Assembly (NCBI RefSeq): GCF_026240635.1
Contig: NZ_CP110848.1
Span: 2,579,501 to 2,643,500, forward strand
DNA length: 64,000 nucleotides
Reading direction: 5' to 3'
Source: Trichothermofontia sichuanensis B231
GTDB taxonomy: Bacteria > Cyanobacteriota > Cyanobacteriia > B231
Part shown: piece after piece, positions 34,608-46,629 of the stretch
Layout of the letters: each line of letters begins with the position of its first letter
Position numbering within the stretch: the first letter of the stretch is position 1
Position numbers and translations under genes: made by a program
Notes under the pieces: model-generated
Databases searched by the model: none
Seen by the model: only the letters and a program-made list of their open reading frames with translations
Told to the model about the DNA's origin: nothing

Positions 34608-36026
34608 TTGCATACCCTATCAACAACAACTATGAAGACAAAAATCAAGTATTATACTCTGGCCCTTACAGCATTTTTGCTAACTGCTCGTTTTGGCCCT
34701 AGTACTGTTCCTGCAATGGCAGATGCCTTGGAAATCTATCAAGCTATCCAAGCAACATCTGAGTACAAGAATCCAGTTCTTGGCACGACGATTCGTTATC
34801 CGAAAAACTTGAAAGTTGTGGAAGACAAAACTCAGTCTAGAACCTGGGGATTCACACTGATTGATCCTAGTGGCCAGCCTCATTTCCAAGAGACATCCAA
34901 TGAGCAGCATCCTGTTTTGCGAGTTAGCGTGATTCTGGAACCTAATGTCACAGAACCTGAACAGGCTGCCCAATCACTCTTGCGCTCCTTCCCTGGTGTT
35001 TCCATCCAACAACAGGCTATTACTATTGGTGGGGAATCAGCACAAGCCCTATCGTCGGTACCAGGAGAACATCCTGCGACCTATATCTTCTTGAAAAACA
35101 ATGGGAAGGTATATGAGATCATCTCTTACGATGATCTAGATCACCAGGGGGAATCCTTATTGAGTAGCCTTACTTTTGAGACACCTCAGACCTCGGTAGA
35201 ATCTCTGCACCTTCCAAGCTGGACTGAGCCACCCCTCCGTACTGAAATTCCAGGACAGCCTGATGAGAAAGACGTTCCTGTCAAAAAAGAGCCAGAAAAA
35301 ACACGGCTAGCGCCTGTTAGTCTGGCATTGAAAGCGCTACTGCCAGAAGCTAACCCAATGAAATTCTTGAATTCAGATTTGGGTGGAACTAATGCTCTAG
35401 GTGAATCTGTTATAAACCCATCTGTTTCTGGAGGCGTTCAGGTCGCTGCTGCTTTTGGATGTGCAGATTGGCCAAGTTGGAAGTTTATCCAAACACCATT
35501 CTCTTCCACAGCTAACGGTAATGGTTGGTCTAAAGCTGGTCCAGCTTACTATGGCGAAAATATGCACAAAAATTGCAACTCATCTAACCGACTTAACGAT
35601 TATCATGCGCTTGACTTTCCCCTGAGGAATGGAGATATTATCTATCCTCCTGCTGCAGGTAGAGTCATCTATGCTGGTTGGGCTGCACCAGGTTGGGGCT
35701 CACTAGGACGTATCGTTGTTGTTGATTTAGGCGATGGGTATTGGAGTCTTTCGGCTCATCTTAGCAGTATTAATGTCTCACCTGGACAAACAGTTGGAAT
35801 CAGTACAGTGATTGGTCGGGCTGGGGGGAGTGGCTACTATCGTGATAATGCTTGGAGTATACACTTACACCAGGGTATTTATCGCAATGCTAGGCTTTTC
35901 CGCGACTCAGCCGGTCGAGTAGGGATTTATGGCGGCCAGAGCGTTGAAATGCACAATGTTCGCTATTTTCGGAATGGTGGAGGGGCGTACCAAAATATTT
36001 ATCGTGGGCAGTCTCTTAGTTGGTAA
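34608..36026 (+). CDS. Exported M23-like metallopeptidase with PsbP-like N-domain
   Basis: A 472-residue exported protein. A signal peptide (1-38) is followed by a PsbP/Mog1-like domain (about 55-195; I-R-Y-P-K-N-L-K and later G-G-E-S-A-Q-A-L). A Pro/Lys-rich linker leads to a lysostaphin-like domain (about 290-445): Y-H-A-L-D (H333, D336), P-A-A-G-R-V-I-Y-A-G, L-S-A-H-L and I-H-L-H-Q. The first motif has H-x-x-D rather than the usual H-x-x-x-D, so activity on peptidoglycan is not certain. TTG is taken as start because AAAAGGAGA lies just upstream; an ATG at 34632 lacks a ribosome site. Confidence 0.78.
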   Translation: MHTLSTTTMKTKIKYYTLALTAFLLTARFGPSTVPAMADALEIYQAIQATSEYKNPVLGTTIRYPKNLKVVEDKTQSRTWGFTLIDPSGQPHFQETSNEQHPVLRVSVILEPNVTEPEQAAQSLLRSFPGVSIQQQAITIGGESAQALSSVPGEHPATYIFLKNNGKVYEIISYDDLDHQGESLLSSLTFETPQTSVESLHLPSWTEPPLRTEIPGQPDEKDVPVKKEPEKTRLAPVSLALKALLPEANPMKFLNSDLGGTNALGESVINPSVSGGVQVAAAFGCADWPSWKFIQTPFSSTANGNGWSKAGPAYYGENMHKNCNSSNRLNDYHALDFPLRNGDIIYPPAAGRVIYAGWAAPGWGSLGRIVVVDLGDGYWSLSAHLSSINVSPGQTVGISTVIGRAGGSGYYRDNAWSIHLHQGIYRNARLFRDSAGRVGIYGGQSVEMHNVRYFRNGGGAYQNIYRGQSLSW

Positions 36027-38493: not shown

Positions 38494-39156
38494 ATGGATA
38501 ACACCTTCGATGGGGAGAGTTTTAAGCAGTTGCTTGAGGAAACCTGTCGGCATTCACCGGATAGCCTAGAGCGTCGGCGCGGGTTAACCAAGATCATTCG
38601 GATGATCGTGCAATCGGGTAAACTGTGGCGGGAGGCAACTGACTACTATGAAGACGCCCTCCAACAAACCTGGATCTACTTTTGCCAAAACCTCTGTGAA
38701 GCAACGACAGCCCGATCGGCCTATGATCTGGCGGTGGGCAGCGTGACCACTTGGTTAAATGCCTACCTAAAACGTCGCCTTCAAGATGGCCGTATTCAAA
38801 AAAGTGAGGAGTCCCAAAAACGCGCATTTCTACCTCAGTCTCAGGATGAATCCCAGGAGGGTATGGCCAATCCACTGGAAAACCTAGCTGGTAATCCAGA
38901 TATCCCACCGTTACTGGAAGAAACTTATAGCTGGGCTGAACAGGACCCAACCGGGGAATTACGTCAGACTCATGTTAAAAACCGTCCTGATATCACTGCC
39001 CAAATCTTGATCTTACGGCGATTACCGCCAGAAACTAGTTGGGAAGTGTTATCACAAGACTTGAAAGCATCAATTAGTACCCTCAGTGGCTTCTATCAGC
39101 GTAAATGTCTACCTTTACTCTGTCAATTTGGTCAGTCCCAAGGTTATTTAGATTAG
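38494..39156 (+). CDS. Sigma-70/ECF-like regulatory protein
   Basis: A 220-residue protein resembling a small sigma factor. Residues about 45-100 (Y-E-D-A-L-Q-Q-T-W, then S-V-T-T-W-L-N-A-Y-L-K-R-R-L-Q-D) match sigma region 2. Residues about 165-210 (L-I-L-R-R-L-P-P-E-T-S-W-E-V-L-S and onward to Q-R-K-C-L-P) look like a helix-turn-helix region 4. Between them is a polar linker. Region 2 is recognisable but not canonical, so it may direct transcription or only bind polymerase or a partner. It is the first gene of a tight operon (10 bp to DUF1822). Confidence 0.72.
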   Translation: MDNTFDGESFKQLLEETCRHSPDSLERRRGLTKIIRMIVQSGKLWREATDYYEDALQQTWIYFCQNLCEATTARSAYDLAVGSVTTWLNAYLKRRLQDGRIQKSEESQKRAFLPQSQDESQEGMANPLENLAGNPDIPPLLEETYSWAEQDPTGELRQTHVKNRPDITAQILILRRLPPETSWEVLSQDLKASISTLSGFYQRKCLPLLCQFGQSQGYLD

Positions 39157-39166
39157 GAAGAAGATC

Positions 39167-40171
39167 ATGAACATCATCACATCAGAACCGATCCCAGATT
39201 TTTCACTCAGATTGCCAATCACACGGGCTGATAAAGTGATCGCCGATCGTTTCTCGCGACAACAGCCCAACCCAGTGAAGGCAGAGCAGGTTTATCGGAA
39301 CACGCTGGCCATTTTAGTCGTTAAGAACTATTTGGAAATGCTAGGGATTGTGACCGATCTTGAGCGTAGCTATAGCTGGAATCCTGTTGTTCCCCTAGCA
39401 GCCGATGTGGCCGATCTGCAAGTGGTGGGTCGGGGTGCTTTGGAGTGTCGCCCGATCCAACCCGGTGCGGCCATCTGTTCTGTTCCCTATGAGGTTTGGG
39501 ACGATCGCGTGGGCTATGTGGTGGTCGAGGTTGCCGGTCAGGCTACGAATCCGACGGAAGCAAGGATTTTGGGGTTTACACCAACGGTGGTTTCAACTGA
39601 AGTGGCTATCGCAACCCTAAAACCGCTAGAGGACTTATTAGAACATTTAGCCACGTTAGAAAAACGGGTGAGTACGGTCACAACAACTGTCAATGAGAGC
39701 CAGCGATCCTTGGTTAACCTGAGTGAATGGTTTCAAGGGACGATCACGGAGGGATGGCGATCGCTCCAGTATCTCCTGAATCCGGAAGTTCAAGTATTTG
39801 CCTTCAGAGGTCGTAGTGAGTCTGGGGTCCGCGAAACGGATCAACAATATGCCGGAGTTCGCAAAGGTAAAGTCCTCAATTTAGGGGTACAGCTAGCTGA
39901 GCAACAGGTAATTTTGGTGATTGAAATCAAGCCTGCGGAGAGCGATCGCTTCCAAATTCTGATACAAGTGCATCCAGCTAGTGAGACACTCTACCTACCG
40001 CCAAACTTGAGGCTTGTGATTTTAGATGGGCAGGACGAAACATTTTTAGAGGCGAAGGCCAGGGAAGCAGATAATTTCATTAAACTCTCGTTCCGTGGCA
40101 GCGTCGGGGAAGCGTTTGGGGCTAGAGTGAGCCTAGAAGATGCGGTAATCACCGAATATTTCAAGATCTAG
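39167..40171 (+). CDS. DUF1822 protein
   Basis: A 334-residue soluble protein of the cyanobacterial DUF1822 family. The N-domain (about 1-135) has A-L-R-style F-S-L-R-L-P-I, V-Y-R-N-T-L-A-I-L-V-V-K-N-Y-L, S-W-N-P and L-E-C-R-P. A central helical stretch (about 145-205; L-E-K-R-V-S-T-V-T-T-T-V-N) leads to a beta-rich C-domain (about 225-334; L-G-V-Q-L, V-I-L-V-I-E-I-K-P, L-R-L-V-I-L-D). There are no catalytic residues. Placed between a sigma-like gene and a CHAT protease, it may be the substrate or bridge between them (inference). Confidence 0.85.
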   Translation: MNIITSEPIPDFSLRLPITRADKVIADRFSRQQPNPVKAEQVYRNTLAILVVKNYLEMLGIVTDLERSYSWNPVVPLAADVADLQVVGRGALECRPIQPGAAICSVPYEVWDDRVGYVVVEVAGQATNPTEARILGFTPTVVSTEVAIATLKPLEDLLEHLATLEKRVSTVTTTVNESQRSLVNLSEWFQGTITEGWRSLQYLLNPEVQVFAFRGRSESGVRETDQQYAGVRKGKVLNLGVQLAEQQVILVIEIKPAESDRFQILIQVHPASETLYLPPNLRLVILDGQDETFLEAKAREADNFIKLSFRGSVGEAFGARVSLEDAVITEYFKI

Positions 40172-40286
40172 TTAAACGCCTTATAAGATACAAAAGTACT
40201 GGTGATTAGTGAGGTAGGATAGAGTCAGAATAATATCATTCTAGCTAGAGCAACGGTTGGCTAGAGGAGGGGGAGTCAGGCTAAGC

Positions 40287-42077
40287 ATGGCACAGCTAGT
40301 AGTCTTTGAGCTAGAGGGAAGCGATCTGGCGCAGCCGCTCAAGGTGACGCTAGAAATTTCGGATCAAGTCAACTATGCCCATACGCGTTTGATCAGTGGT
40401 TTGCCGCCAGCCCCACAGGTTGCTGAAAACTATGACCAATGGCATAGTGTCTATCGTTGTTTGGATCTGGATTTACGCTTAGAGGCAGACGCTGGTCAGG
40501 TCACGAATGTTGCCTATACCCAGTTAATCAGCAATTGTTATCACTCAACGCAAGTTTTGAACCAAAGTCTCAATGAGTGGTATCGATCGGACAATTTTAG
40601 TCGGATTCGGGAAAAATTGCTGGAGGTCCTCAATTGGGATCAGGAAATTTTAATCCAGGTAAGAACGCATAATGAGGTTCTGTGGAAGTTACCCTGGCAT
40701 TTATTTTTTGATCAGTTTTTAGAACGCTATCGGCTGGCTGAAATCGTCCTCAGTGTTCCGGAATATGAGCAGGTAAGAACAAATGTCCCGGCGACAGATA
40801 AGGTTCGGGTTTTAGCGATTTTGGGGAATAGTGCGGGAATTAATGTTGAGGCCGATCGCGCCTTACTGGAGAGTTTACCCCAGGCAGAAGTTAAATTTTT
40901 AGTCGAGCCACGTCGTGAGGCATTGAATGAACAATTGTGGGAGCAAAATTGGAATATCCTCTTTTTTGCCGGACATAGTTCTAGCCGAGGGGGAACAGGG
41001 ACAATTTATATCAATGCAGAGGAGGCATTGACGGTAGCAGAGGTGCGGTATGCCCTGCGAGAATCGGTGGCACGGGGATTAAAGTTGGCGATTTTTAACT
41101 CGTGTGATGGGCTGGGGTTGGCGAAGGAATTATCAAGCTTGAATATTCCCCAGTTAATCATTATGCGTGAGCCAGTACCCGATCTGGTAGCGCAGACATT
41201 TTTGAAGTTTTTTCTGAATGCATTTTCTAATGGTAAGTCATTATATTTGTCGGTACGGGAAGCGCGGGAACGATTGGAGTCACTCGAAAACCGTTTTCCA
41301 GGGGCAAGTTGGTTACCGGTGATTTTCCAAAATTCAACTCAGGCGTTGATGGACTGGCAGGAACTCCGGTTATCGACGCCGCAACGGTCGCACCCGATCG
41401 CACCCCAAGTCCCAGCCCCAACGCCAATCCCTACCCCGACTAAGCCACCTCGGAAAACAACGCTTAAACCGACTCAACAGCGCCCGTCTAAACAGCGATC
41501 GTTCCCGGTGAAATATAAGGCTTTATTGCTGGGTGTTGTCGCGGTCGGTTTGATCGGTGGTGGGTGGCTGTGGCAGCAAAGAGGTGGACTGGAGCGTCTC
41601 ATGGCTGTGCCGATGACCTATGAGAATGCCCATGATGGGGTGCAGATGACCTATCTCAGCAATTGGAAGCTATCGGCGGAAACGAACGATATTATTCTGG
41701 GGAAGGTTGCAAGGTTCACGCCTAAGTCAGTGGTTGCGAAAGGGGGATTTGCGGAGGTAACGATCGAGGTGATTAAACTGCGAAAACCGATGACGTTGAC
41801 TGAGTATACTACTGAGTCAGTGGCACAAATTATTGAGTATATGCCAGGAGCAAAAATTCTTCGTTCAAACCCAGTGATGCTAGGGGAACGACCAGCCCAC
41901 GAGGTCATTTATACTGGGAAGGATGAGGAGCGGCAGGTCGCACTTAAGGCTTGGCAAGTCTGGACGATTCGGAACGATCGGGCCTATGTGATCACCTATA
42001 TTGCCGATGAGGTACTCTACGATCGTTTTGTAAAGGATTTTCAACGAATGCTAGATAGCGTTACATTAATTTGGTGA
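40287..42077 (+). CDS. Membrane-anchored CHAT protease with extracytoplasmic PsbP-like domain
   Basis: A 596-residue protein. Residues 1-165 are an N-domain typical of CHAT genes paired with DUF1822 (L-P-P-A-P). The caspase-like CHAT domain spans about 170-350, with His H230 in F-F-A-G-H-S-S and Cys C273 in F-N-S-C-D-G. A Pro/Thr/Lys-rich linker (365-405), one membrane helix (about 409-428) and a C-terminal PsbP/Mog1-like domain (about 440-596) follow. The protease would be cytoplasmic and the PsbP-like domain outside. ATG at 40287 is preferred over an in-frame TTG at 40257. It is the last gene of the operon. Confidence 0.88.
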   Translation: MAQLVVFELEGSDLAQPLKVTLEISDQVNYAHTRLISGLPPAPQVAENYDQWHSVYRCLDLDLRLEADAGQVTNVAYTQLISNCYHSTQVLNQSLNEWYRSDNFSRIREKLLEVLNWDQEILIQVRTHNEVLWKLPWHLFFDQFLERYRLAEIVLSVPEYEQVRTNVPATDKVRVLAILGNSAGINVEADRALLESLPQAEVKFLVEPRREALNEQLWEQNWNILFFAGHSSSRGGTGTIYINAEEALTVAEVRYALRESVARGLKLAIFNSCDGLGLAKELSSLNIPQLIIMREPVPDLVAQTFLKFFLNAFSNGKSLYLSVREARERLESLENRFPGASWLPVIFQNSTQALMDWQELRLSTPQRSHPIAPQVPAPTPIPTPTKPPRKTTLKPTQQRPSKQRSFPVKYKALLLGVVAVGLIGGGWLWQQRGGLERLMAVPMTYENAHDGVQMTYLSNWKLSAETNDIILGKVARFTPKSVVAKGGFAEVTIEVIKLRKPMTLTEYTTESVAQIIEYMPGAKILRSNPVMLGERPAHEVIYTGKDEERQVALKAWQVWTIRNDRAYVITYIADEVLYDRFVKDFQRMLDSVTLIW

Positions 42078-42916: not shown

Positions 42917-43642
42917 TTAACGTCTTGAAGGTAGACCAACTTCACCACTACCTACTTTTTCTTTCATTAGTTCTGCGAATCTGATGGCATCTTCACGATC
43001 GATAAAGGATGCTACCTGAATAGAGTGTAATTTTGATCCTTCGCGACGATTCCGAATGGCATCTCGACAATACTGGGAACGAATCAGACGTAAGTTGCTT
43101 TCCCTGTAGTTAACATAAACGGGATACCATGTGCTTGCGTTACGATGGGTGTCACCGCAGGTATCCATTGGAAAATTAAAGCGATTAGTACTCAGAAGGT
43201 TATTACTATCGCCCAGGATAACGGGTAACTGTCGATTCTTAATGCGATCGAGGATTGCTTGTGAGTTGGTATTTGCTCTCAGGGTAATAAGAGTACCATT
43301 TGGTAAACAAGGACCGCCATTAAAGCCTGCTACACAAATGACAGGGAGATTATTGACAATACCAGTTGTCATAAAATTGATTGTCCCGTTATCATCAGCG
43401 CGTTGGAAGCGATCGGCTATTTCCCGGCAGCGATCGCCCAGTTGTGACGATAACCTTTCGTTCCAAACGATAAATGGAACATCGCCTCGATGTGTTGTGC
43501 GTAGGAATATGGCTACACTGCCTTGATATTCACTACAGTGATAACTTCGAGATTGAGCCAAGGTTGATTGAGTACTGGCCAGTATTCCTCTCAGTGACAG
43601 AATAGCAATGATTAATAGTTGACCTAAAAATGTTGACTTCAT
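42917..43642 (-). CDS. COP23-domain exported protein with C-terminal module
   Basis: A 241-residue exported protein. A signal peptide (1-30) is followed by a COP23-type domain (about 32-160; Y-H-C-S, R-C-R-E-I-A-D-R-F, V-I-C-V-A-G-F, G-P-C-L-P-N-G-T-L), with four to six Cys probably in disulfides. Residues about 166-238 form a module, F-P-M-D-T-C-G-D, T-W-Y-P-V-Y-V, Q-Y-C-R-D-A-I and I-Q-V-A-S-F...V-G-S-G-E-V-G, that recurs twice in the neighbouring protease. COP23 proteins are thylakoid/periplasm-associated with no known reaction. Last gene of the minus-strand operon. Confidence 0.82.
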   Translation of the reverse strand: MKSTFLGQLLIIAILSLRGILASTQSTLAQSRSYHCSEYQGSVAIFLRTTHRGDVPFIVWNERLSSQLGDRCREIADRFQRADDNGTINFMTTGIVNNLPVICVAGFNGGPCLPNGTLITLRANTNSQAILDRIKNRQLPVILGDSNNLLSTNRFNFPMDTCGDTHRNASTWYPVYVNYRESNLRLIRSQYCRDAIRNRREGSKLHSIQVASFIDREDAIRFAELMKEKVGSGEVGLPSRR

Positions 43643-43657
43643 ATCATAAAAATTGCT

Positions 43658-44977
43658 TTATCTTCTCCCTGCCCCAGAAGTAGCCGATCGCGCATCAAAC
43701 TGCGACGACTCACCCACCTCACCACTGCCAATCCGCCTTTTCATCAGATCCGCAAATGCCTGGGCATCCTCTTGCTTCAAGAACGACGCAATTTGAATCG
43801 AATGTAAGCCCAGTTTTTCACGATAGTTCCGGATCGCATCCCGGCAGTATTGCGTCTGAATCATCCTGAGACGGGCTTCGCTGTAATTGACAAATACTGG
43901 ATACCAGGTGTTACGGCCACCCGGATCCCGATCGCCACAGGTTGCCATCGGGAAATTCCAGTTTCTTCGGGGTGGGGGGGATGGCACGTAGGGAGAACCA
44001 ACACGACCACTGCCCACGGCATTCTGCATAAAACTAGCAAATTCTCTGGCCTTTTCTACATTCAAAAAAGAAGCTACCTGGATACCATTATCCTTGCGAA
44101 TCGCATCTCGACAATACTCCGCCTGTACTCGCCTAAAATTTGCTTCAGTATCATTGATTAATACCGAATACCAGGTATTGCTTCCCCCAGAATTGGGATC
44201 GCCGCAACTAGCCTTGGGAAAACCAGCGATCGAAGCGGGTACGGGATTGGGTATTGGTACCGAAAAGCGTTCAATAAAGCGATCGGTAACAAAGCGGCTG
44301 AGGGGTATGCCAAACGCAATCAGCGTCCCTGTTGCCGGATCGGTCTGCGCTTTACCGTTGATCCCAATTACCCGACCCGCTTGGGATAAAACCGGTCCCC
44401 CTGAAGTTCCCGGCACCACCCGATTATCATAGGCAACATCGTAGCCTTTAGCATCGTTCGGTGCAAGACTCGTGATCCGACCCGATGTAAAATGCGTTGG
44501 CGCGGAGATTAGAGAGGGATAACCAAAAATATAAACCTCCTGACCATAGGCTAATGGTGTCTTATTATCCAGTTCAGCAGATGGATAACTACGTTGGCTT
44601 TCAAATTTTAAGAGCGTAACATCTAATTCAGGTGAAATCCTTAAACCCAACTCAGCAACTTCTCGACTCCCAACGGGAGACAGGGGATAATAAAACTCTT
44701 CATTCGACATCTTGATCTGATAATCGCCCGGATAGTTCATCACATGACGACTGGTTAAAACGTAATAATCTGAGCGATCGCGACCAACAATAACGGCAGA
44801 TCCCGCCTTTTCCCGCCGACCCTCCCGCACTAAAAAGATTTGCCCAGTAATTCTCTTGGCGATATCACTAATCTCACTAATCTGAAGAGCAACCGTTGAA
44901 TTAATCGCGATCACGCTTTGTACAATCGCGATCGTGGCCCCCAATAATACCGTTGCCAGGGATAGCTCACATCGCAT
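43658..44977 (-). CDS. Trypsin-like serine protease with two repeated C-terminal modules
   Basis: A 439-residue exported S1-type protease. A hydrophobic leader (1-30) is followed by the protease domain (about 38-240) with H78 in T-S-R-H-V, D119 in P-E-L-D-V-T-L-L and S192 in P-G-T-S-G-G-P. Two copies of a ~75-residue module follow (about 252-328 and 341-423), each with C-G-D, N-T-W-Y-x-V, Y-C-R-D-A-I, I-Q-x-A-S-F and V/I-G-S-G-x-V-G. Between them is a short Pro-rich linker. It lies 11 bp after the upstream protease and 15 bp before the COP23 gene. Confidence 0.88.
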   Translation of the reverse strand: MRCELSLATVLLGATIAIVQSVIAINSTVALQISEISDIAKRITGQIFLVREGRREKAGSAVIVGRDRSDYYVLTSRHVMNYPGDYQIKMSNEEFYYPLSPVGSREVAELGLRISPELDVTLLKFESQRSYPSAELDNKTPLAYGQEVYIFGYPSLISAPTHFTSGRITSLAPNDAKGYDVAYDNRVVPGTSGGPVLSQAGRVIGINGKAQTDPATGTLIAFGIPLSRFVTDRFIERFSVPIPNPVPASIAGFPKASCGDPNSGGSNTWYSVLINDTEANFRRVQAEYCRDAIRKDNGIQVASFLNVEKAREFASFMQNAVGSGRVGSPYVPSPPPRRNWNFPMATCGDRDPGGRNTWYPVFVNYSEARLRMIQTQYCRDAIRNYREKLGLHSIQIASFLKQEDAQAFADLMKRRIGSGEVGESSQFDARSATSGAGRR

Positions 44978-44988
44978 AACCTTACCCC

Positions 44989-45822
44989 CTACTTATTCCC
45001 AGACAATGACACCGTTGATGACCATAGCGATCGGGCCGCACTAATCGGAATTCCCCAGCTATAGCGACTCAGTTCTGCTTTCAAATTCGCTTCCGGTAAA
45101 GTCCCATCCATAAACACATAGGGATCACCCCAGAGCGCCTCCGAATGCATTCCATTGATTGCCAGCAACTGTCCCTGGGCATTCAGAACCGGCCCGCCGC
45201 TCATCCCCGACGCCACCGGATTCGTATACCCCACCTGATACCCCCCGGCTAGCGGCTTAGGCAGAAATAAGGAAATCTGACCACGCTGCAATGTAAATCG
45301 CGGCGGAGCCTCCGAATCAAAGGCGATCGGAAATCCCGCCGCATACACCACCTCTCCCACCTGGCCTCCCCCCCCTGGGGCCACCACCGCATACTCAGTC
45401 TGCGGACTGTCGAACGCTAAAACCGCCAAATCAGCGTCATTAAACGGGATATTCTCCACTGGCAGCGCCGCATACACCTGACCATCACTGGTTTGCACCC
45501 AATAGGGACCCGGATCGGCCCGGAGAACGTGGGCATTCGTCAGCACCCAATACACTGACCCCTGCCGTTTAATCACCGTCGCCGAGCCAATGGTTTGGCG
45601 CGTTGGCTCACCCGCCATGACCTGAACACTAATCCGTTCTGCCAGTTGATATAGGCGCGTGTCCTGAACCAGAACATCTACGGACGTCTCGGTCAATGGG
45701 GGAAACGCCTGTCCAGAGAAGGGCACGCGGCTCCACGGACAGACGATCGTGCCAACACACAAGCTACCCGATACCAGCCCTGCCAACAGAGCCGGATGAT
45801 AGCCATGCTTTCCCCTCAACAT
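44989..45822 (-). CDS. Trypsin-like serine protease
   Basis: A 277-residue exported protease. The ATG at 45822 lies 4 bp after the stop of the upstream COP23 gene and is followed by a hydrophobic leader; a longer frame into that gene is not supported. Catalytic residues: H98 in L-T-N-A-H-V, D131 in N-D-A-D-L-A-V-L and S208 in S-G-M-S-G-G-P. It lacks the C-terminal modules of its neighbour. It is probably periplasmic and co-transcribed with the COP23 gene before it. Confidence 0.86.
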   Translation of the reverse strand: MLRGKHGYHPALLAGLVSGSLCVGTIVCPWSRVPFSGQAFPPLTETSVDVLVQDTRLYQLAERISVQVMAGEPTRQTIGSATVIKRQGSVYWVLTNAHVLRADPGPYWVQTSDGQVYAALPVENIPFNDADLAVLAFDSPQTEYAVVAPGGGGQVGEVVYAAGFPIAFDSEAPPRFTLQRGQISLFLPKPLAGGYQVGYTNPVASGMSGGPVLNAQGQLLAINGMHSEALWGDPYVFMDGTLPEANLKAELSRYSWGIPISAARSLWSSTVSLSGNK

Positions 45823-45826
45823 GGGC

Positions 45827-46447
45827 CTATTGCTCCCCGATGGCGGGTTCCTCCCAGACCGGCCCTGACCCTGGCGGCACTGGCGGCAGCAGTTCCAGCA
45901 AAGGCCGCAAATCCCCATAAACGGCTTCACCCACAGGGGTAATGTCCATCTGAACCCTCTCTTCGTCTAGGTTTCCAGATAGAAAAACGGGTTGACCATC
46001 AACCATCACCCGCTTCGTCAACAAACGCTCCAAAACAGCACTTGGATCGGTATAGGGTCTTAAGGTCACAACCAACCCATTGGGCAGACAGTCCCCCCCT
46101 TGAAAAGCCGCGACACAAAGGGCCGGTTGTCCATTCGTGATCGCCGATCGCAGATAGTTCAGCGTGCCATTTTCATAGAAGCGTTGAAAACGGGCCGAAA
46201 TCTCCTCGCATCGGGATTGGGGATTCCACGGCTCCGGGAAGGAATCGTCCACCCACAAAATTAACGGGATATTCCCGCGTGAGATCGTTCGGACAACGGT
46301 AGCTGGGTGCCCCTGGTAGAGGCCACAGAAAAATCGAGATGCGGTGGATGCACTCGTCTGCGCCAGTCCCGGCAGGCTGGTCATCGCCAGTGTCCCCGAA
46401 ACCAAGGTAGCGCTGAGGAGTCCCCTGATCAATCGCGGTAGAGTCAT
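45827..46447 (-). CDS. COP23-domain exported protein
   Basis: A 206-residue exported protein. The ATG at 46447 starts a clean signal peptide (1-29, cleavage after L-A-Q); upstream extensions are not needed. The COP23 domain (about 35-165) has F-F-C-G, R-C-E-E-I-S-A-R-F, A-L-C-V-A-A-F, G-D-C-L-P-N-G-L. The tail is Pro-rich and lacks the module seen in the second COP23 protein. It is the first gene of the operon; the promoter should lie in 46448-46620. Confidence 0.8.
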   Translation of the reverse strand: MTLPRLIRGLLSATLVSGTLAMTSLPGLAQTSASTASRFFCGLYQGHPATVVRTISRGNIPLILWVDDSFPEPWNPQSRCEEISARFQRFYENGTLNYLRSAITNGQPALCVAAFQGGDCLPNGLVVTLRPYTDPSAVLERLLTKRVMVDGQPVFLSGNLDEERVQMDITPVGEAVYGDLRPLLELLPPVPPGSGPVWEEPAIGEQ

Positions 46448-46629
46448 AGGTCGTCTGCCCACTGTCAGCAGTGTTGATGTAAGCTTATCTCCAGTGTTCC
46501 CCCCCTTGCCAGGAACTAACATAACCATCGATAAAGTTTTGGTAAATTTGACAGACCCGGTTCAGTTGCTTAAGTTCGTTTGATCGCGCTGTTTCAAGCA
46601 GTTACCGCTATACCGTGAGGGAATGGCCT

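Follow-up and report, generated by a model that had tools for sequence, protein, structure and literature searches.

The three closely packed genes on the plus strand of the window, i.e., the 64,000-nucleotide stretch of Trichothermofontia sichuanensis B231 DNA analysed here, raise the question of whether a membrane-anchored protease may activate a sigma factor by cutting the protein encoded between them. The preliminary description of this DNA had noted the tight packing, and open reading frames for all three are present: an ECF-like sigma factor of 220 aa (38494..39156), a DUF1822 protein of 334 aa (39167..40171), and a CHAT protease of 596 aa (40287..42077). The first two are separated by 10 bp and the last two by 115 bp, taking ATG 40287, which the alignment favours over TTG 40257, as the start of the CHAT gene. 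The DUF1822 gene is the only copy in this genome. We put the probability that the locus constitutes a protease-released sigma switch, with DUF1822 as the anti-sigma factor that is cut, at roughly 0.6, and the earlier idea of a sigma factor released by proteolysis is partly supported.

The assignment of the first gene is based on its open reading frame, the Pfam matches of its relatives, and a predicted fold. Sigma region 2 and region 4 features had been described for the window protein, and we place them around residues 50–100 and 165–212, respectively; they are recovered in family members and in the predicted fold of a relative, but neither Pfam nor NCBIfam recognised a sigma domain in the window protein itself, even at E ≤ 1. 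Among 30 members of the family, Sigma70_r4_2 was matched in 10 (best 9e-6) and Sigma70_r2 in 7 (best 2.3e-6). The model of a 55% identical relative, from locus L057, resembles ECF sigma chains (6dv9_F, 5zx2_F, 9m9e_F, and 9n9q_C) over residues 9–219 with Z of 6.3–7.4, which points to a two-domain ECF fold; the rmsd of 16–24 Å to these chains is high since the two domains are arranged differently from the RNA-polymerase-bound form. Sequence profiles of the sigma factor, CHAT, and DUF1822 retrieved no convincing PDB relative, and the only signals from a search for a shared promoter motif ahead of 81 sigma genes were weak and AT-rich.

Across cyanobacterial genomes the genes follow a conserved order, namely sigma, DUF1822, protease. 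At 47 of the 50 strong matches to the sigma family of the window, found in 96 cyanobacterial genomes, a DUF1822 gene follows on the same strand within 1.5 kb, and in a second sigma family, of approximately 400 aa and with Pfam Sigma70_r4 above the cut-off, DUF1822 is directly downstream in 49/53. The linkage, which the preliminary description had proposed as a check, is thus strong and far above chance. The two sigma families did not match significantly when their profiles were compared with each other, and we therefore do not claim them as one. The third gene encodes a CHAT protein in 63/78 first-family and 22/52 second-family loci, and a C14 metacaspase in 8/52 of the latter (PF00656, E = 6e-19 for the protein of locus L206); all eight metacaspases retain intact FSGHG and DACHSG/DACHGG motifs. 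Some sigma/DUF1822 pairs have no neighbouring protease; this applies to 22 of the 52 second-family DUF1822 genes. In most of the Nostocales loci examined, the sigma gene does not adjoin DUF1822, although each of the 14 genomes of this kind that were checked has a DUF1822 gene. No sigma-DUF1822 fusion occurred among the matches listed from 390 genomes (open frames of up to 345 aa).

The protease of the window matches the CHAT domain (PF12770) with E = 1.3e-11 and 44.9 bits against a gathering threshold of 24. The catalytic residues His230 (40974..40976) and Cys273 (41103..41105), correctly numbered in the preliminary description, are invariant across the 38 aligned CHATs (the window protein and 37 relatives). 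Asp299 (41181..41183) is also invariant and, when the protein is aligned with other CHAT proteins encoded in this genome, coincides with the Asp of the LWxVxD motif of canonical CHAT domains; a search with a canonical CHAT as query found no separase or Csx29 for alignment, so we suggest only tentatively that it is an S1-pocket acid. The cytosolic part, consisting of an N-terminal region and the CHAT domain, is followed by a single predicted transmembrane helix (residues 412–430; 41520..41576), recognised from hydropathy and sequence, whose Lys/Arg-rich N-side flank predicts an N-in/C-out orientation. Beyond the helix lies a PsbP-like domain (41613..42059), the presumed extracytoplasmic sensor, in which residues 443–591 match PsbP_2 (PF18933) with E = 6.7e-5 and 23.4 bits, below the cut-off of 27; its relatives occur as the outer domains in proteins of kinase-TM-PsbP-like architecture. 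The PsbP-like sensor, to which sensing outside the cell had been ascribed earlier, is particular to the window locus; most CHAT relatives carry CHASE2 or other sensors, and signal sensing is therefore variable. The Pfam scan of the CHAT protein found no EACC2 match; its N-terminal region is conserved over about 130 aa. The protein scores 29.5 bits against the HetF model NF045509, whose equivalog cut-off is 1200, and the literature yielded nothing usable on HetF-PatU3 cleavage or on links between orthocaspases and sigma factors. An M23 peptidase encoded at 34608 appeared PsbP-like by eye and has no similarity to the CHAT sensor.

The middle protein matches PF08852 over the whole profile (1–370) with E = 4.1e-67 and 227 bits against a gathering threshold of 25, and matches no PDB chain in sequence. 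In the models of the L057 relative, an N-terminal alpha+beta domain is followed by a C-terminal Ig-like beta-sandwich (39860..40168 in the window), which resembles Ig-like domains with Z of 5.7–7.9. Foldseek and VIA searches were filled by this domain and barely covered the N-terminal one; no Csx30-like match was seen in them. The sigma factor and DUF1822 of the relative were also modelled by AlphaFold2 as one tethered chain, with the intervening stop codon read as Gly. The pTM was 0.63 over 574 residues for the tethered chain and 0.55 over 339 residues for DUF1822 alone, i.e., approximately 362 versus 186 confidently placed residue-equivalents; a tethered chain lacking the contact would be expected to reach about 0.40. 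These confidence scores imply that sigma docks on the N-terminal domain of DUF1822, the interface being judged from pTM arithmetic. Structure modelling, which had been proposed as another check, thus predicts the contact.

The linker between the two domains of DUF1822 contains a good candidate for a cut site. The Trp residues of the LSEWF...EGW segment (W188 and W197; 39719..39757) are invariant in 43/43 aligned proteins, and the segment is ordered in the models immediately ahead of the flexible linker. In most members, 16–21 residues past the second Trp, an Arg follows (Arg214 in the window, FAFR^GRS; 39806..39808); it is present in 43/43 aligned members and in 81/85 CHAT-linked members of a wider set. 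Its equivalent lies in a stretch with pLDDT below 50 in both the tethered and the DUF1822-alone model. The residues around it read A-[FY]-x-[FL]-R-[SG] with CHAT and A-R-[GSD] in 8/8 cases with C14 metacaspases, a difference that is confounded with phylogeny. The second-family DUF1822 proteins without an adjacent protease retain the Arg in nearly all cases, so it may have another role, or a protease may act on it in trans.

The genes, the conservation of their order, the intact catalytic residues, the exchange of CHAT for a metacaspase, the ECF fold, and the conserved Arg of the linker are thus shown. We infer from these features a cis-encoded, proteolysis-activated sigma switch, together with its binding (from model confidence), inhibition, cutting, cut site, signal, and regulon. 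The N-terminal domain of DUF1822 would bind the ECF sigma factor and keep it off RNA polymerase, while the membrane-anchored CHAT protease would be gated by its C-terminal sensor, here the PsbP-like domain across the membrane. Once triggered, CHAT would cut DUF1822 after Arg214 as the P1 residue, parting the sigma-binding domain from the Ig-like domain; sigma would then be freed, perhaps only after degradation of the remaining fragment, as in the proposals for Csx30 and CalpT.

The same components could be arranged otherwise. DUF1822 might bind sigma without being cut, as a scaffold or co-activator bringing it to the protease/sensor complex, with the CHAT or metacaspase activated autoproteolytically. 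This reading, which we consider unlikely, resembles what Kaur et al. 2021 (PMC8195603) proposed; they suggest autopeptidase activation and call DUF1822 a TPR protein. It would accommodate the sigma-DUF1822 pairs that have no adjacent protease. However, the modelled DUF1822 contains no TPR array, and a mere scaffold would hardly account for an Arg that is almost invariant within a disordered linker and has flanks that differ with the protease type.

Less probable still is that the protease ends sigma activity by cutting sigma itself or another target, DUF1822 being the adaptor that presents it. The linker between sigma2 and sigma4 is also disordered in the model (pLDDT blocks 53–55), but an alignment of ten sigmas reveals no invariant basic or protease-like motif there, unlike in DUF1822, and the substrate is the middle protein in both known CHAT/Lon-sigma systems. 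We give a similarly small chance to mere co-transcription, in which sigma would do no more than drive its operon together with secretion genes in the vicinity, while the targets of CHAT would be unrelated. TPS-exoprotein and secreted TPR-CHAT genes within 7 kb of sigma in 22/80 loci could represent such a regulon, but the strict gene order, the predicted contact between sigma and DUF1822, and the occupation of one position by either of two clan CD protease types argue for a direct circuit.

For most caspase-like proteases of cyanobacteria, CHAT proteins and metacaspases alike, we are aware of no described natural substrate, and we know of no explanation for the regulation of many cyanobacterial ECF-type sigma factors. 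The proposed module names the substrate, the partner sigma, the sensor, and a single mutable residue. We would give even odds to the broader claim of a general, CRISPR-independent cyanobacterial module, in which interchangeable clan CD proteases (CHAT or metacaspase) with interchangeable sensors cut DUF1822 after the conserved Arg and release an ECF sigma; if so, DUF1822 would form a large new anti-sigma family, and some cyanobacterial CHATs and metacaspases would gain a natural substrate. Its suggested inputs are ordinary environmental ones (CHASE2, periplasmic-binding, PsbP-like, and WD40/STAND sensors).

The gene triad as such had been described by 2021. The window locus almost certainly belongs to the EACC2-caspase neighbourhoods with ECF sigma and DUF1822 described by Kaur, Iyer, Burroughs, and Aravind in eLife (PMC8195603), having the same three gene types, with a caspase-fold protease whose C-terminal sensors vary in the same way. 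A role of DUF1822 as an anti-sigma factor that is cut, the cut site, and the PsbP-like sensor were not found in the available portions of that text; the anti-sigma reading looks new, as do the candidate site of cutting and the replacement by a metacaspase.

The window system, as proposed, works like Craspase and CalpL-CalpT-CalpS and is a member of neither. Craspase/CASP (type III-E CRISPR: Cas7-11, the TPR-CHAT protein Csx29, Csx30, and CASP-sigma) shares the CHAT protease, the ECF sigma, and a middle protein whose N-terminal part binds and inhibits sigma; Csx29 cuts Csx30, the inhibitor bound to the ECF sigma, and Csx30-N remains bound (PMC10028731, PMC9729208). It uses TPRs and a guide RNA, whereas the window CHAT has a membrane sensor and no TPR match in Pfam, the Pfam scan of eight proteins from the locus revealed no Cas protein, and PADLOC does not match the triad. 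Csx29 cleaves after Leu (PMC10028731, PMC9729208), in contrast to the candidate P1 Arg of DUF1822, so Arg at P1 is not general for CHAT. In the type III CRISPR system, the protease, anti-sigma, and ECF sigma likewise act jointly, and CalpL cuts CalpT to release a fragment still bound to CalpS (PMC11417357); CalpL, however, is a Lon protease with a cA4-binding SAVED domain, whereas the present system employs CHAT, with a PsbP-like C-terminal domain in the window, or a metacaspase, with other sensors. The proposed module suggests that the logic of a protease-freed sigma has a wider reach outside CRISPR. With regulated proteolysis of the RseA/DegS/RseP type, the proposed switch shares the loss of an anti-sigma factor upon an extracytoplasmic signal, but here it is the protease, of the caspase-fold cysteine type, and not the anti-sigma factor, that would span the membrane.

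The window locus is one of many copies of a gene triad noticed in 2021 in EACC2-caspase/ECF sigma/DUF1822 neighbourhoods (Kaur et al., eLife, PMC8195603). In this cyanobacterial genome of 4.44 Mb in one contig, three plus-strand genes encode a sigma-like protein of 220 aa (38494–39156), a DUF1822 protein of 334 aa (39167–40171; PF08852, E = 4e-67) and a CHAT protease of 596 aa (40287–42077; PF12770, E = 1e-11). The genome encodes no second DUF1822 protein. It has eleven CHAT proteins; apart from that of the triad, most carry canonical CHAT domains with far higher scores. Genes for secreted trypsin-like and COP23 proteins cluster beside the triad on the minus strand (42917–46528).

The window sigma protein alone gave no sigma match in Pfam; among 30 diverse members of its family (family 1), ten matched Sigma70_r4_2 (best 9e-6) and seven Sigma70_r2 (best 2.3e-6). 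For a relative from another locus, L057, residues 9–219 of the AlphaFold2 model resemble the ECF sigma chains 9n9q_C, 9m9e_F, 6dv9_F and 5zx2_F (Z 6.3–7.4), and the rmsd of 16–24 Å across both domains suggests that the modelled domains are arranged unlike the polymerase-bound form. Of 390 genomes sampled from the class, 160 contain family 1; at genus level it occurs in 88 of 160.

For 47 of the 50 strongest family-1 matches (96 genomes), a DUF1822 gene on the same strand follows at a distance of at most 1.5 kb. Many DUF1822 genes without this linkage adjoin, downstream, a distinct sigma family of ~400 aa (family 2; Sigma70_r4 above the cut-off), itself linked to DUF1822 in 49 of 53 cases; DUF1822 thus partners with both sigma families. 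Family-1 sigma genes of heterocyst formers often stand alone, yet DUF1822 was found in all 14 such genomes checked. At L002–L030 and L142–L181 the ~400-aa family is tied to a longer DUF1822 subfamily.

Physical contact was approached through L057, a natural locus with the sigma stop codon in frame with the DUF1822 start. The stop was read as Gly (88 aligned rows), a modelling tether that implies no read-through, and AlphaFold2 gave a pLDDT of 85.9 and a pTM of 0.63 for the 574-residue chain, against 87.6 and 0.55 for the 339 residues of DUF1822 alone (43 rows). Multiplied by length, the control pTM corresponds to ~186 confidently placed residues, which is the N-terminal domain with the Ig-like domain floating, and the tethered pTM to ~362, roughly what that domain and the ordered part of sigma add up to; we estimate that the tethered chain would reach a pTM of ~0.40 if the two made no contact. 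This comparison of pTM values argues indirectly for a predicted sigma–DUF1822 contact.

The N-terminal domain of DUF1822 has an alpha+beta fold and closes with a conserved Trp segment; a linker of pLDDT <50 then leads to an Ig-like sandwich. A linker Arg (R214 in the window), usually 16–21 residues past the second Trp, is invariant in the first alignment (43/43) and present in 81 of 85 CHAT-linked proteins of a wider set. Its context is A-[FY]-x-[FL]-R-[SG] in CHAT-linked DUF1822, A-R-[GSD] in all eight metacaspase-linked ones, and mostly [AG]-x-R-[SG] where no protease is adjacent. Many ~400-aa sigma/DUF1822 pairs keep the Arg with no protease alongside, and at L045 (2179–3303), L183, L195 and L221 a long, apparently HEAT-repeat-like insertion directly follows it. 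Metacaspases prefer Arg or Lys at P1. Separase recognises its P1 Arg via an Asp; Csx29 has Lys there and cuts after Leu. Asp299, invariant in the triad CHAT family, aligns with the LWxVxD Asp of canonical CHATs and may have the separase Asp role of reading the P1 Arg.

Across 130 complete DUF1822 loci, CHAT follows DUF1822 in 63 of 78 family-1 and 22 of 52 family-2 loci, certain loci scored as lacking a third gene being merely contig ends. Eight family-2 loci (L160, L163, L168, L172, L204–L207), whose host genomes span several families of the class, have in CHAT's place a C14 caspase-fold metacaspase with intact FSGHG and DACHSG/DACHGG motifs, directly downstream of sigma–DUF1822; that of L160 continues into nSTAND1 and WD40 domains.

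The window CHAT has a single hydrophobic helix (residues 412–430) with a Lys/Arg-rich N-side, which predicts a protease in the cytosol and a PsbP-like domain beyond the membrane. The examined relatives of this domain are kinase-TM-PsbP-like proteins; it is a portable outer domain that kinases also carry. Elsewhere the C-terminal parts of CHATs are CHASE2, TPR, nSTAND1-WD40, periplasmic binding protein, protein kinase or nucleotide cyclase. Fusions of CHAT with a Ser/Thr protein kinase (L126, 8731–11526) and with a nucleotide cyclase and CHASE2 (L095, 7692–10889) lie inside the DUF1822 operon. At L190, L193, L194 and L199 proteins of ~1550–1640 aa fill the CHAT slot, that of L190 bearing nSTAND1 and WD40 repeats C-terminal to the CHAT region.

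At 22 of 80 loci, genes for TPS exoproteins or secreted TPR-CHATs, which may belong to the regulon, occur within 7 kb of sigma. They are frequently divergent from sigma or placed between it and DUF1822, as likely regulon members (L081, L088, L117; L058, L060, L062, L075, L080). The stretch examined at the window locus holds neither; its genome encodes six TPS proteins.

In the simplest reading, the DUF1822 N-domain would be an anti-sigma, and a sensor-gated protease would sever it from the C-terminal Ig-like domain. The triad likely works similarly to Craspase and Calp, although it belongs to neither system. Csx30-N remains on sigma after cleavage by Craspase, and a CalpT fragment is left on CalpS; sigma release may require more degradation after the cut. 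Relative to the 2021 report, the anti-sigma and cut-site reading of DUF1822 and the metacaspase replacement of CHAT appear to be new; that report describes the architecture seen in the CHATs of these loci, a constant protease with a variable sensor.
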